Assembly: GCF_011761355.1 (NCBI RefSeq)
Contig: NZ_JAASRW010000006.1
Span: 372,001 to 436,000, forward strand
Length of the DNA stretch: 64,000 nucleotides
Direction: 5' to 3'
Source of the DNA: Paenibacillus lupini
GTDB lineage: Bacteria > Bacillota > Bacilli > Paenibacillales > Paenibacillaceae
Shown in pieces: positions 1 to 62,392 of the stretch; the first letter of the stretch is position 1; every line of letters begins with the position of its first letter. A model generated the notes under the pieces. That model searched no databases, had not been told where the DNA came from, and was given only the letters and a program-made list of their open reading frames with translations. The translations under genes and the position numbers were made by a program.

Positions 1-272
1 CTCCCCTCGGTAAGAAACTGTTTGATTACACCGCTTTGCGCGATTTTGTTCGAGGTAAGGACGATGGAATAATTAAACGAATCCATGCCGCTTCTAATTT
101 GTGTCGTTATCTTCGAATTCGTAATACTGAACGTCTCCATAAAGACGCGCCCGGAAATATTAATCGTCATCCACGTCGTAGTAATGGAAACCGCCACAAT
201 GCTGACGACCATAATAATGAACATTTTGACGAATAGTCCGTTATATTTGAACCGATCTAGTACATTCCTCAC
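1..272 (-). CDS. Sensor histidine kinase, YesM type (N-terminal part, cut by window edge)
   Basis: Translating the minus strand from a GTG at 272 gives an open frame to the window edge, beginning VRNVLDRFKYNG. Residues about 11-35 form one hydrophobic membrane segment, followed by a polar stretch (SGRVFMETFSITNSKITTQI) typical of the start of an extracellular Cache-like sensor domain. The frame begins 14 bases after the stop of the YesN-type response regulator at 286-1854, the usual regulator/kinase pairing in Paenibacillus. A second in-frame GTG lies at 281. The catalytic domain is outside the window, so the YesM assignment rests on topology and context. Confidence 0.72.
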   Translation of the reverse strand, partial: MRNVLDRFKYNGLFVKMFIIMVVSIVAVSITTTWMTINISGRVFMETFSITNSKITTQIRSGMDSFNYSIVLTSNKIAQSGVIKQFLTEG

Positions 273-285
273 AGCTCTCACTCAC

Positions 286-1854
286 TCATCTCATGTTTTG
301 TTGCCGGTAGCGGCTTGGCGATAAGCCGGTATGCTTCTTAAACACTTTGCAGAAATAACTATGATCCGAATAACCTACCATCCCGCTAATCTCCGAAATC
401 AAGGCTTCTCCTCCGCGCAGCAGTTCAGACGCCTTCTCTAATCTCACCCGATGCAAATAATCAACAAAGCCTTCATTATGGTGAGTAGAGAAGTAGCTCG
501 ACAAGTAGGAAGGGTTAAAATGAAAATGTTTTGCCATCTCTGTTAAATTAAGCGATTCCGCGTAATGTTCATGAATATAATCGAGCAGACGCTTCATATT
601 GGCATTGCCGGATTGTTCAGTCTTCTCGGCGATACACAGCTTAGCCTCTTCGATAAATTCATTAAGCAGCTCCGCTGCAGCACCTGCATTGCGGGACTCT
701 TCGATCGCTTTGAAATAGTAGTATTTCTTCGTCTCGAGCTGTTGTGTGCTGTAGTTCATATTGCCCAGCAGCACGGTGATATTAAAGATGACATTACTTA
801 AGAACGACTTATATTCGAATACATCCGTCGTGTAGTTGGTTTTAAACACGTCCAGATGATCACGCAAATAGTCAAAGGCGGTGTCAAAGCGTTCCCGCTT
901 GAACGATTCCGTGAAATTATTCAAGTTAAAGGGCTCAACTGCTTGTGTGGATTCAGGAAACTCATTAAACAATAGCAGATGCTTGTCCGGAAAATAAAAA
1001 GCGTAGTCCATCATTTTCAGCAGATTAGTCTTGTACGCTTGCTCTAGTCCAGTAATAGCTGAGAAAGGCTCGCTGACTACGACTGCCGTATCCAGCTTCA
1101 ATTGATCAATCGAGCTTGCCATCGTTCTCGCCCAGTAGGGCAGCAGGCTCAGCATCGTATAGTCCAAATTGAGGAGCAGCAGAATCATCGGCGCTTCTGC
1201 CTTCAGAACATGGTACACCAGCTGTTCGGCATATTGAGCCTGCTTGTCCAGTTCTTCCTGCATCGTGAGCCGGATCGCATTCACCTGCTCCTTCGTCATC
1301 GTCCTTCCTCGAAGGTCGATGCCAAGCAGGCAGAAGGCACTATGAGGAAACTCGTCAGTAAGCTCATCTACAGCCTGCTGATCATCAATCTCGTAGCCAG
1401 ATAACAACTTATCTAAAATGGAGTCGATGGATGGCCCCTGATCAACGACCTGCACATCTCCTTGTAAGGATGGAATCTTCTCAGCTGCCGACTTTAATAC
1501 ACTCAGCAAATGACCGGTGTCGAGCTTGGGTTTTAATATATAGTCTCGTACGCCGCTTTGAAAGGTAGAACGTACGTAATCGAAATCTCCAAAGCTGCTA
1601 AGGACAATAACCTCAATGTCCGGGTATTGCAGCTTAATTTGCCGGGTCAGCTCTTCGCCGTCCATGATTGGCATAACAAGATCCGTCAGCACAATATGCG
1701 GCTGCAGCTCTGCGATGAGCTCAAGCGCTTCTTTACCATTCGAAGCTTCGCCTACGATTTGGAAGCCTTCCTGCTCCCAATTCATGTAGTGCTTGATGCC
1801 TTGCCGGATTAAGGCTTCATCATCAACGATCAGCAGCTTGCAGTAATTTGACAT
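286..1854 (-). CDS. Response regulator, YesN type (REC + AraC-type HTH)
   Basis: 522-residue two-component response regulator. The N-terminal receiver domain (about 1-125) has the acidic pair D11/D12, the phosphoacceptor D58 (VLTDLVMPIMDG), a Ser at 86-87 and K108 (YILKPK). The middle 130-415 is a poorly conserved linker, and residues about 425-520 form an AraC-type double HTH ending in the signature YSDHSYFCKVFKKHTGLSP. Such proteins usually activate sugar transport or polysaccharide operons in response to a YesM kinase, here the adjacent partial gene at 1-272. ATG at 1854 is preceded by AGGAGGGG. A hairpin repeat array begins 19 bases upstream of the start, so it lies in the leader or promoter of this gene. 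Confidence 0.93.
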   Translation of the reverse strand: MSNYCKLLIVDDEALIRQGIKHYMNWEQEGFQIVGEASNGKEALELIAELQPHIVLTDLVMPIMDGEELTRQIKLQYPDIEVIVLSSFGDFDYVRSTFQSGVRDYILKPKLDTGHLLSVLKSAAEKIPSLQGDVQVVDQGPSIDSILDKLLSGYEIDDQQAVDELTDEFPHSAFCLLGIDLRGRTMTKEQVNAIRLTMQEELDKQAQYAEQLVYHVLKAEAPMILLLLNLDYTMLSLLPYWARTMASSIDQLKLDTAVVVSEPFSAITGLEQAYKTNLLKMMDYAFYFPDKHLLLFNEFPESTQAVEPFNLNNFTESFKRERFDTAFDYLRDHLDVFKTNYTTDVFEYKSFLSNVIFNITVLLGNMNYSTQQLETKKYYYFKAIEESRNAGAAAELLNEFIEEAKLCIAEKTEQSGNANMKRLLDYIHEHYAESLNLTEMAKHFHFNPSYLSSYFSTHHNEGFVDYLHRVRLEKASELLRGGEALISEISGMVGYSDHSYFCKVFKKHTGLSPSRYRQQNMR

Positions 1855-51211: not shown

Positions 51212-51286
51212 TCGTGTTCCTCTCTCCAACTGTTCATGATGCTCCTATTATACTATGAAAGCATGCATTGCGGAGCGACAAAAGAA

Positions 51287-51335
51287 GGGGGTGTCCCATA
51301 AGTCATGAAAATGACGATGGGACACCCCTTTTTTA
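51287..51335 (+). terminator. Hairpin at the left end of the IS element
   Basis: GGGGTGTCCCAT and ATGGGACACCCC pair around AAGTCATGAAAATGACG (itself hairpin-forming, GTCAT/ATGAC), followed by TTTTTTAT. It overlaps the left inverted repeat and may stop transcription entering the element. Confidence 0.75.
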
Positions 51336-51357
51336 TCTAGGCTAAACAGCAGTCTGC

Positions 51358-51472
51358 GCATTTAAATGTTCTTCCAATCGCCATTGCTCGGGGATTCCCT
51401 GAATCAACGAGGTAAGGTTGGAATCCCCTCACAAAAGCGACCGCTGACGCTTCTCCAGAATCATTTAATTGC
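51358..51472. repeat. Nested stem-loop repeat, copy A
   Basis: Outer arms at 51358-51372 (GCATTTAAATGTTCT) and 51457-51472 (AGAATCATTTAATTGC) pair. Inside lies a second hairpin with CGGGGATTCC and GGAATCCCC. The segment GACGCTTCTCCAGAA is shared with copies B (61773-61885) and C (62334-62383). Copy A lies between the left IS end and the transposase gene. Confidence 0.75.
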
Positions 51473-51577
51473 TCCGTCTACTCTTAACCTGTTCATGAAA
51501 TGCTCAAACAAAAAGAAGCCAACCCTTGTTAAAATGGAGGTACCACCCAACCATTCTAAGTAAAGAGAGGCTTCTTT

Positions 51578-53137
51578 ATGTACAAAGAATATACCATGGA
51601 TCAGTTATTCTTGCCAATGGACTTGCAAGAAGATATCCCCGAAAATCATCTCGTTCGCGTCATCAATGACGCGGTCAATCGCTTAGATCTGAATCTCTTC
51701 ACCAAAGCTTATCCCGGAGGTGGCCGGGACAGCTACCACCCCAAAATGCTTCTAAAGGTTATCATCTATGCTTACACACAGCGCATTTACTCGTCTCGCC
51801 AAATCGCAAAAGCGGTACGCGAAAACATCATGTTCATGTGGCTGGCCGCCAGACAGCGCCCAGACTTCCGAACCATTAACCGCTTCCGCTCTGAACGCAT
51901 GAAAGACGTGCTGGAGACCGTCTTTACAGCTGTTCTTCAGTTTCTCATTGAAGAAAACTACGTCAAGCTCGACCATTACTTCGTGGATGGAACGAAGATC
52001 GAAGCGAATGCCAATCGCTACACGTTTGTGTGGGGCAAGGCTGTCGTCAAACAGAAGATGAAGCTACAAGAAAGAGTTCAGACCCTGTTCACTGCCATCG
52101 AGGAGGCTGAGAAACAGGAAGACCAAACTCTGAATAACTTGGACCTCCCGAAGCTCAGAGAGGCTTCCACCATCACAAGCGAAAAGTTAGAACAGGCAGT
52201 TCATCAACTTGAAAATAAGCTTCAAGAAAAGCCAAAGAACAAACCGCTAAAGAAAGCCGTTCGCCTTGTCCGGAAAGACCTTCTGCCACGCCTGCAGAAA
52301 TATGAAAATCAGCAGGAAACACTCGGAAACCGCAACAGTTTCAGTAAAACCGACCCCGATGCAACATTTATGCGCATGAAAGAAGATCATATGCGTAATG
52401 GCCAGTTGAAACCAGGCTATAACGTACAGATCGGAACAGAGGATCAGTTCATTCTTAGCTACAGCCTTCACCAACGCCCAACAGATACGCGTTGCCTCAA
52501 GCCGCACCTCGATCAAGTGAAGGCTTCGCTTGGTCAATTGCCGGGAACCATCATCGCGGATGCAGGTTATGGGAGTGAAGAAAACTATGCTTACCTGGAG
52601 TCTGAGGAACAACGGGCACTAGTGAAATATAATACCTACCACAAAGAAAACACCAAAGCATGGCAACAAGACATTAGCAAATTCGAGAATTGGTTGTACG
52701 ACGAGCAGGAAGACACGTGGACATGTGCAGCAGGACAGAAACTCCTATTCCGTTATGAAAGCAGAAGTAACACGGAAAGTGGGTATGAAATCAATACTCG
52801 CCATTATCGTAGCTTTTCATGTGAAGGCTGCCCATTGAAAGAACAATGCACGAAGGCACAAGGCGACCGTGAAATAAAGGTCAGTATGGAATATCTTCGC
52901 CTTAAACGACAAGCTCGGGAGCAATTAAAGAGTGAAGATGGACATGCCTTATCGGTTCGACGCATGCACGAACCGGAGAGTGTGTTTGGGCAAATAAAGA
53001 ATAACCGAGGATTCCGTCGGTTCCTGCTTCGAGGCTTGCCGAAAGTCAGCCTAGAGGTCGGGTGGCTTTCGCTTGCCCACAATTTGCTAAAGAAAGCAGC
53101 AAGAGATCTAAAAACAAAAATAGCAGTGCAGGGATAG
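51578..53137 (+). CDS. IS1182-family transposase
   Basis: 519 residues, apparently full length. The N-terminal DUF772-type DNA-binding region (DSYHPKMLLKVIIYAYTQRI, in one block) is followed by a DDE catalytic core: VDGTKIEANANRYTFVW (first Asp), GTIIADAGYGSEENYAYL (second Asp), then a zinc-finger-like CEGCPLKEQCTKA, and the final Glu in HEPESVFGQIKNNRGFRRF. ATG 51578 follows AAAGAGAGG, whose surroundings (AAAGAAGCC and GGCTTCTTT) form a hairpin over the ribosome binding site. Such a structure can limit transposase translation. No frameshift seen. Confidence 0.95.
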   Translation: MYKEYTMDQLFLPMDLQEDIPENHLVRVINDAVNRLDLNLFTKAYPGGGRDSYHPKMLLKVIIYAYTQRIYSSRQIAKAVRENIMFMWLAARQRPDFRTINRFRSERMKDVLETVFTAVLQFLIEENYVKLDHYFVDGTKIEANANRYTFVWGKAVVKQKMKLQERVQTLFTAIEEAEKQEDQTLNNLDLPKLREASTITSEKLEQAVHQLENKLQEKPKNKPLKKAVRLVRKDLLPRLQKYENQQETLGNRNSFSKTDPDATFMRMKEDHMRNGQLKPGYNVQIGTEDQFILSYSLHQRPTDTRCLKPHLDQVKASLGQLPGTIIADAGYGSEENYAYLESEEQRALVKYNTYHKENTKAWQQDISKFENWLYDEQEDTWTCAAGQKLLFRYESRSNTESGYEINTRHYRSFSCEGCPLKEQCTKAQGDREIKVSMEYLRLKRQAREQLKSEDGHALSVRRMHEPESVFGQIKNNRGFRRFLLRGLPKVSLEVGWLSLAHNLLKKAARDLKTKIAVQG

Positions 53138-53155
53138 CCCTTGCACTGCTATTAT
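53121..53155 (+). terminator. Terminator at the end of the transposase gene
   Basis: AGCAGTGCAGGG and CCCTTGCACTGCT form a stem around ATAG, followed by ATTATTTATT. It overlaps the transposase stop codon. Confidence 0.75.
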
Positions 53156-53226
53156 TTATTAAAATCACACTGATGCGAGCCGGTTCTCCAGCGAGCGAAC
53201 CCCTTTTGAGACGGCCCCTTTCATAT

Positions 53227-61719: not shown

Positions 61720-61754
61720 ACGGGCTGTACCCTTGGGTACAGCCTGTTTTTTTG
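61720..61754 (+). terminator. Terminator after odhB
   Basis: ACGGGCTGTACCC and GGGTACAGCCTGT form an 11-12 bp stem around TT, followed by seven T. Confidence 0.9.
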
Positions 61755-61772
61755 TTTCGTTCATCTCACTAC

Positions 61773-61885
61773 GTGGTCTAATATTCTTACGATCGCTGTG
61801 CTTTTCGGATTCCCTGATTCAACTTTTTAATGTTGGAATCCGAAAACCAAGGCGAGCGCTCCGCTTCTCCAGAACATTAGTCCAC
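61773..61885. repeat. Nested stem-loop repeat, copy B
   Basis: Outer arms 61773-61787 (GTGGTCTAATATTCT) and 61871-61885 (AGAACATTAGTCCAC) differ at two pairs. Inside, TTTTCGGATTCC (61802-61813) pairs perfectly with GGAATCCGAAAA (61835-61846). Relative to copy C this is the same outer element with a second hairpin inserted in its loop. CGCTCCGCTTCTCCAGAAC is shared with copy C. Confidence 0.85.
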
Positions 61886-61906
61886 TCCGTTCGACTAAAC
61901 CAACCA

Positions 61907-61952
61907 AAAGGGCTATACCCAAGGCTAAAAGCCTGCGGGTATAGCCCTCTTT
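61907..61952 (+). terminator. Second terminator-like hairpin downstream of odhB
   Basis: AGGGCTATACCC and GGGTATAGCCCT form a perfect 12-bp stem around AAGGCTAAAAGCCTGC, itself partly paired, followed by CTTTG. It may be a back-up terminator. Confidence 0.6.
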
Positions 61953-61967
61953 GTACAACAGGGATCC

Positions 61968-62257
61968 GTTCCTGGCTGACAGCCCAGGAACGACATTCTC
62001 TGGACCAGACTCGCGCGGGCCATATGGGCCTCGATTCTAAACGAAATGCAACAATACATGTAAAAGTCCAGCTGATCAGCTGGAACTCTCAATAAAATGC
62101 GAAAATGCAGGTAAATCCAAGCTAAGTATGCCTTCTAGGTGTAAAAGGCGAGATTTACCTGCATTTTTGCATCTGGACGACAGAGTCGCATTACTTTACG
62201 AAAATAACCTGCACTTTTGCAGATGATAAATCTTGTTCCTGGCGACAGCCCAGGAAC
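61968..62257. repeat. Repeated GTTCCTGGC hairpins and a 16-bp-arm hairpin
   Basis: The hairpin GTTCCTGG(CTGACAG)CCCAGGAAC occurs at 61968-61992 and again, one base shorter, at 62235-62257. Between them, AAAATGCAGGTAAATC (62102-62117) pairs perfectly with GATTTACCTGCATTTT (62152-62167). No coding function is apparent. Confidence 0.7.
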
Positions 62258-62261
62258 ACAT

Positions 62262-62293
62262 AAAAAAGCCTGCTGAAGACACTCAGCAGGCCT
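62262..62293 (-). terminator. Terminator after the ArsR-type gene
   Basis: On the minus strand GCCTGCTGAGTG and CACTCAGCAGGC-type arms (GCCTGCTGA/TCAGCAGGC) form a stem around GTGTCT, followed by TTTTTTATG. It is 100 bases beyond the stop at 62393, beyond repeat C. Confidence 0.8.
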
Positions 62294-62333
62294 AAACTGC
62301 CCTCCCCAATAGGGCGAGCAACTTTGGAGCGAA

Positions 62334-62383
62334 GTAAGTGAATGTTCTGGAGAAGCGGAGCGATCGGAAGAATATTCACTTAC
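62334..62383. repeat. Stem-loop repeat, copy C (simple form)
   Basis: Arms 62334-62348 (GTAAGTGAATGTTCT) and 62369-62383 (AGAATATTCACTTAC) pair over 15 bases with one G-T/A-C change. The 20-base loop is the reverse complement of the TCGCTCCGCTTCTCC segment in copy B. It overlaps the region just after the stop of the ArsR-type gene. Confidence 0.85.
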
Positions 62384-62392
62384 GCAGCGACA

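Follow-up and report, generated by a model that had tools for sequence, protein, structure and literature searches.

The window, a stretch of 64,000 nucleotides of the Paenibacillus lupini genome, holds three hairpin-forming repeats (copies A, B and C) that are members of one large, apparently uncatalogued palindromic DNA repeat family found throughout Paenibacillus and its relatives. The members of the family are dispersed, confined to Paenibacillus and its order, and mostly immobile; each is a long imperfect palindrome with a conserved unpaired core. We give an even chance to the reading that their arms are kept complementary mainly by fold-back copying and exchange at the DNA level, with a separate constraint on the core, because paired Watson-Crick replacements are clustered, a strong G-U signature of the RNA type is lacking, and flanking sequences are mirrored across some of the hairpins. 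The main rival to fold-back copying is selection at the RNA level.

Three copies in the window

Copy B (61766-61890, plus strand) is a full-length element and the best-scoring copy of the whole genome in a covariance-model search (model positions 1-127, 124.4 bits, E 1.8e-33). The 5' arm of its outer stem P1 (61773-61787) pairs with the 3' arm at 61871-61885 and, as the preliminary description had it, the loop contains a second, perfect 12-bp hairpin, the inner stem P3, with arms TTTTCGGATTCC (61802-61813) and GGAATCCGAAAA (61835-61846), all on the plus strand. The 18-mer CGCTCCGCTTCTCCAGAA (61857-61874, plus strand), made up of the asymmetric unpaired segment and the start of the P1 3' arm, had been proposed as the shared core. 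It is exact in B and C, with two occurrences in the window against 0.03 expected, but only there; the core of the family as a whole is CAAAGGCGAACGCTnCGCTTCTCCAGA.

Copy C (62329-62390, minus strand; 54.1 bits with the covariance model) is the simple hairpin that had been reported, with a stem GTAAGTGAATGTTCT / AGAATATTCACTTAC (given on the plus strand of the window) of 15 pairs including one G-U, closed by a 20-nt loop. Its outer arms had been described as the same as those of copy B, which holds for the inner part, AATATTCT/AGAACATT, but not for the remainder of the arm. An expansion from simple to nested hairpins, also suggested earlier, runs against the comparison with two orthologues located after the same ArsR-like gene (L284 in genome G031 and L286 in genome G018). 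Both are full length and possess the full inner hairpin, and copy C is short of them by approximately 64 nt, its P2 and P3 being deleted between two CGCT direct repeats. Because the outer arms of these full-length orthologues are identical or nearly identical to its own, copy C derives from the full-length form by loss of the inner hairpin and is not a simpler ancestor.

Copy A (51351-51477, plus strand; 107 bits) is again full length and repeats the same design with altered arms, as first noted. It sits inside an IS1182-family element (51285-53220, plus strand, ends approximate), between the left end and the transposase gene (51578-53137, plus strand; NF033551, 457.6 bits, cut-off 270), and homology with a second IS copy begins at the left end and takes in copy A. 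Folding z-scores against dinucleotide shuffles were -5.4 and -5.9 on the two strands for B, -4.0 and -6.4 for C, and weaker, -2.0 and -2.9, for A. Together with the count of the 18-mer, these values exclude hairpins arising by chance. Further small inverted repeats occupy the interval between copies B and C (window 61960-62260), including two that are near-duplicates, GTTCCTGGCTGACAGCCCAGGAAC / GTTCCTGGCGACAGCCCAGGAAC, and a ATTTACCTGCATTTTTGCAT-type repeat.

Anatomy and range of the family

A blastn search with copy B gave 15 matches in the genome it comes from, and 24 of 60 relatives had matches as well. Alignment A1 was built from 43 copies with the structure written by hand, and the resulting covariance model, R1, produced 116 matches in the genome, or about 98 once antisense echoes of the palindrome were removed. 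With two more, this makes at least 100 copies in 6.67 Mb, a lower bound obtained from the 150 candidates scored, and 100 copies were used for analysis. The preliminary description had named a lack of further copies, and of conserved pairing in relatives, as evidence against a family; there are about 100 copies here, and many relatives carry the family.

Each full copy is a 125-nt imperfect palindrome in which variable outer and inner stems surround conserved unpaired segments: a variable outer stem P1, the conserved TCTTCCGATCGCTGTTG, the variable hairpin P3 with a TTGAA-type loop, and the conserved CAAAGGCGAACGCTnCGCTTCTCCAG. In A1, stem P2 contains one A-A and one G-A mismatch. The asymmetric unpaired stretch belongs to the CAAAGGCGAACGCTnCGCTTCTCCAG part, with some 12-13 nt on the 3' side versus 2 nt on the 5' side, and the consensus ends in ACTGCG/CTCCG. 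Double-sided changes are present in 29 of 37 pairs of A1 and 88% of cells pair; none of 500 shuffles was as good, and every slid control was far worse. These figures bear out the earlier proposal of a nested-structure repeat family whose pairing is preserved as the arms vary.

R1 matched 42 of the 51 genomes sampled from the genus and 107 of the 149 sampled from the order, and the two P2 mismatches and the asymmetric loop are conserved throughout the order. In a class-wide draw, matches came only from the nine genomes of the own family, and none from the 112 others. Named records with the core pattern belong to Paenibacillus, plus one Saccharibacillus. No Rfam 15 model reached its gathering score in the window, none matched an element even at E <= 1 across the nine loci scanned, and no description of the family was found in the literature searched; it may be described in the subscription literature, which lay outside this scope.

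Several variants were observed. An extra hairpin, AGCTTTCTGAAAGAAAGCT, is located in the asymmetric loop of 11 of the 100 copies (including L127, L129, L133, L135, L140, L148, L149 and L152), and this subtype would form a three-way junction. A divergent, partly G+C-rich subfamily with GTATCTCC/GGAGATAC arms (L102, L113, L115-L126, L139 and others) often has an ATCGAT palindrome in its outer flanks. Separately, locus L075 contains a T-box leader (131-394, minus strand) slightly below the Rfam gathering score (90.6 versus 93 bits).

Among known systems, the bcr1-bcr18 repeats of the Bacillus cereus group are likewise high-copy and intergenic; some are MITE-like, and some have a conserved secondary structure and are transcribed as parts of untranslated regions (PMC3446304). 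Compared by description, the Paenibacillus family differs in being found only in Paenibacillus and its order, and in its locus-specific arms, asymmetric conserved core, mirrored flanks and positions conserved between species. REP elements, defined as palindromes of 20-40 bp with a GTAG or CGTC end and associated with RAYT transposases, also are palindromic repeats present between genes in many copies (PMC3733652). On these grounds the family might be taken for REP elements with a RAYT transposase, a reading that we consider extremely improbable and reject for this genome: at 125 nt it is much longer, its consensus has no GTAG end, and a search for the Y1 transposase (PF01797), the RAYT-like enzyme that had been suggested for checking, returned no match in the genome and was positive in 5 of 14 control genomes. 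The bacterial MITEs, among which ERIC, RUP and NEMIS are named (PMC3733652), are similar in being approximately 100-200 bp long, intergenic, hairpin-forming, high-copy and non-coding. A shared terminal inverted repeat is a feature of MITEs, whereas the arms of the Paenibacillus family are unshared and change in concert.

Positions and carriers

By gene calls made heuristically with a simple ORF caller, the flanking genes are convergent for 46 of the 100 copies, co-directional for 50 and divergent for 3; for comparison, among the gaps of at least 60 nt in the window, 7 are convergent, 14 are co-directional and 8 are divergent. Behind a co-directional upstream gene, the median distance from stop codon to element is about 30 nt, and in many copies separate, terminator-like A- or T-runs are found further off beyond the element. 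Among 49 copies examined in G031, 38 adjoin the same gene, on the same side and the same relative strand, as a copy here, against one or two expected by chance (an estimate from 100 copies among some 6000 genes), although orthology rests on single flanking genes and the copies are not independent. At these shared positions the distance to the gene is mostly within 30 nt of equal. Such agreement means that most copies are old and not jumping. They keep to their places, which for the most part lie directly behind stop codons or separate transcription units.

The family also rides in IS1182 elements and in prophages. Because the arrangement of copy A recurs in IS1182 elements of G022 (L008, L029, L048) and G018 (L308), the hairpin element belongs to the IS1182 lineage that carries copy A. 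Six Paenibacillus prophage-like viral contigs from IMG/VR (L276-L281) have a copy fixed between a holin-like gene and the tail genes. Searches of phage and plasmid records retrieved no phage record, and one Paenibacillus megaplasmid without annotation at that place. Copies L084, L085, L087 and L091 form a group of similar copies, and an IS-like end, GAGTCTGTCTCATAAGTCATGG, just upstream of L087 suggests a second IS type carrying the element.

These carriers raise the possibility of a non-autonomous, MITE-like mobile element that is still moved in trans, with an IS1182-type transposase as the likely partner. Copies lie within IS1182 elements in three species, solo copies have flanks resembling the IS left end, and G022 contains tandem arrays with periods of about 151 bp and 200 bp (L046, G022:C15:34900-35980; L047, G022:C1:1-900). 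Against this stand the lack of a conserved terminal inverted repeat, since the outer arms vary between copies, and the strict conservation of position, side and strand between species. Furthermore, the closest paralogues of known setting are the IS1182-borne ones, and their similarity extends through the flanks, so that they moved as part of something larger. We regard continued movement in trans as unlikely.

The main rival to fold-back copying would be an RNA-level element, that is, a hairpin transcribed often in 3' untranslated RNA, from either side between convergent genes, and selected to protect or end transcripts or to insulate neighbouring genes; its covariation would then be the ordinary kind seen in RNA. 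The 29 covarying pairs, the excess of convergent over divergent settings, the proximity of co-directional stop codons and the A- or T-runs beyond are all consistent with this reading. Against it, there is no promoter enrichment on either side of the element, as a small-RNA promoter of its own would give, and no U-run straight after the hairpin, with T at 27-30% in the first 20 nt downstream, which led us to reject an intrinsic terminator. A riboswitch or 5' leader was likewise rejected as a general reading, since a co-directional gene lies downstream in only 23 of the 100 copies. Taking in also the changes described below, we hold the RNA-level element to be possible, though clearly less probable than fold-back copying.

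We also considered a functional RNA of a new class, performing one specific task (a ribozyme, an aptamer or a protein-binding RNA) in about 100 copies. The conserved unpaired segments amid freely varying stems and the lack of an Rfam match would fit such a class, but a strand-specific wobble signature is weak or absent, copies occur in both orientations relative to genes, and the neighbouring genes that we read share no evident function. It is, in our judgment, slightly less likely still than a MITE-like element.

Changes in arms and flanks

Selection on one RNA strand is expected to leave G-U above A-C on that strand. In 48 orthologous comparisons, whose alignments were fitted to the model and so favour pairing, 197 paired positions had changed from one Watson-Crick pair to another on both sides, while single changes led to A-C in 63 cases, to G-U in 34 and to other mismatches in 66. 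Across 41 comparisons, a set that leaves out cases with wholesale P3 replacement or shifted arms, adjacent double changes numbered 26 against about 14 expected (no more than 1 shuffle in 1000 reached this), and transversions, which no G-U step can bridge, made up 39 of the 106 double changes.

The stems contain 1.7% G-U and 2.7% A-C, versus 7.1% and 0% in 37 tRNAs of the same genome, where the A-C zero is partly built in because ARAGORN admits standard pairs only. An initial count gave 107 A-C against 52 G-U (the pair at columns 42/146 left out), but isolated interior mismatches in the variable stems are nearly balanced (28 to 38 in this genome and 12 to 25 in two relatives). Given this balance, and an excess in the conserved stem P2 that has the look of a subfamily marker, we abandoned a firm assignment of the strand from wobble pairs. 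Neither strand has a strong G-U excess of the kind that an RNA-level element would predict, and the direction of neighbouring genes has no significant link to the wobble-bearing strand (p = 0.24). Two observations hint at RNA: in 116 of 162 copies the fold of the reverse strand is slightly better than its composition would predict, and in the phage copies wobble (G-U) is confined to the strand that is transcribed together with the phage genes. They amount to a weak lean to the reverse strand.

The flanks provide a second line of evidence. In 13 of the 100 elements they are mutually inverted copies, against 1% in a control that paired flanks of different copies; the mirrored stretch is 50-110 bp long and often includes a complete terminator on each side, while the majority of copies have no mirrored flanks. 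Copy B is positioned after the terminator of odhB (sucB), recognised in the sequence as a terminator-like hairpin with a T-run (61722-61756, plus strand), and this terminator, GGGCTGTACCC..GGGTACAGCC, is the upstream arm of a mirrored flank (mirror alignment L067_1501). Its inverted counterpart, GGGCTATACCC...GGGTATAGCCC, lies on the other side of copy B (61893-61975, plus strand) and scores 47, where the 99% value of the control is 41. Mirrored flanks are most simply read as the outcome of copying across the hairpin, because shared selection could give two terminators but not their sequence likeness.

The inner hairpin, by the identities that follow, is also exchanged between copies. In the pair L285/L069, P3 and its loop are 60% identical and the remainder 95%, and the P3 of L069 resembles, at 87%, the one in a neighbouring copy at a distance of 250 bp. 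The proposal that the units expand as modules survives to the extent that the inner hairpin is at times swapped whole and that 11 copies carry an extra hairpin, but not as it was put. Selection on structure, the other proposal made at first, is one reading of the data; the mirrored flanks, the clustered double changes and the lack of a strong G-U excess favour fold-back copying, and an RNA-level element would need copying in any case to account for the mirrored flanks and the whole replacement of P3.

Under fold-back copying, the hairpin would form during replication, and at the hairpin the polymerase would switch template, or the arms recombine, so that one arm is copied onto the other. Copying would sometimes run outward and mirror the flanks, the inner hairpin would sometimes be replaced from another copy, and the unpaired core would be separately constrained. 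The correction of quasipalindromes by template switching is expected to leave arms that match by Watson-Crick pairing on both strands, to change pairs in clusters and to duplicate flanks in inverted orientation, and the Paenibacillus family resembles it in all these respects. The process is known mainly from short mutation hot spots; it is not known as the way in which a conserved repeat family whose unpaired core stays fixed evolves.

Pure fold-back copying should remove the A-A and G-A mismatches along with the asymmetric loop, yet these are conserved, so some selection must act. RNA-level selection and fold-back copying may both act together. The core may, as a tentative best guess, be the part of the extruded hairpin that a putative host factor recognises. 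A more specific model, which we think unlikely, would have the putative host factor recognise the fixed unpaired core of this lineage-specific DNA hairpin and provoke fold-back copying; each copy would then continually rewrite its own arms and sometimes mirror neighbouring terminators into two-way transcription boundaries.

Covariation commonly counts as proof that an RNA is functional, and here the paired changes look at least partly derived from DNA copying between arms. The family supplies more than 100 natural replicates in each genome, and their positions can be matched from one species to another. If confirmed, it would provide a direct measure of template switching in evolution, would caution against taking covariation in long palindromes for RNA selection, and would fill a large gap in the repeat annotation of the Paenibacillus order.
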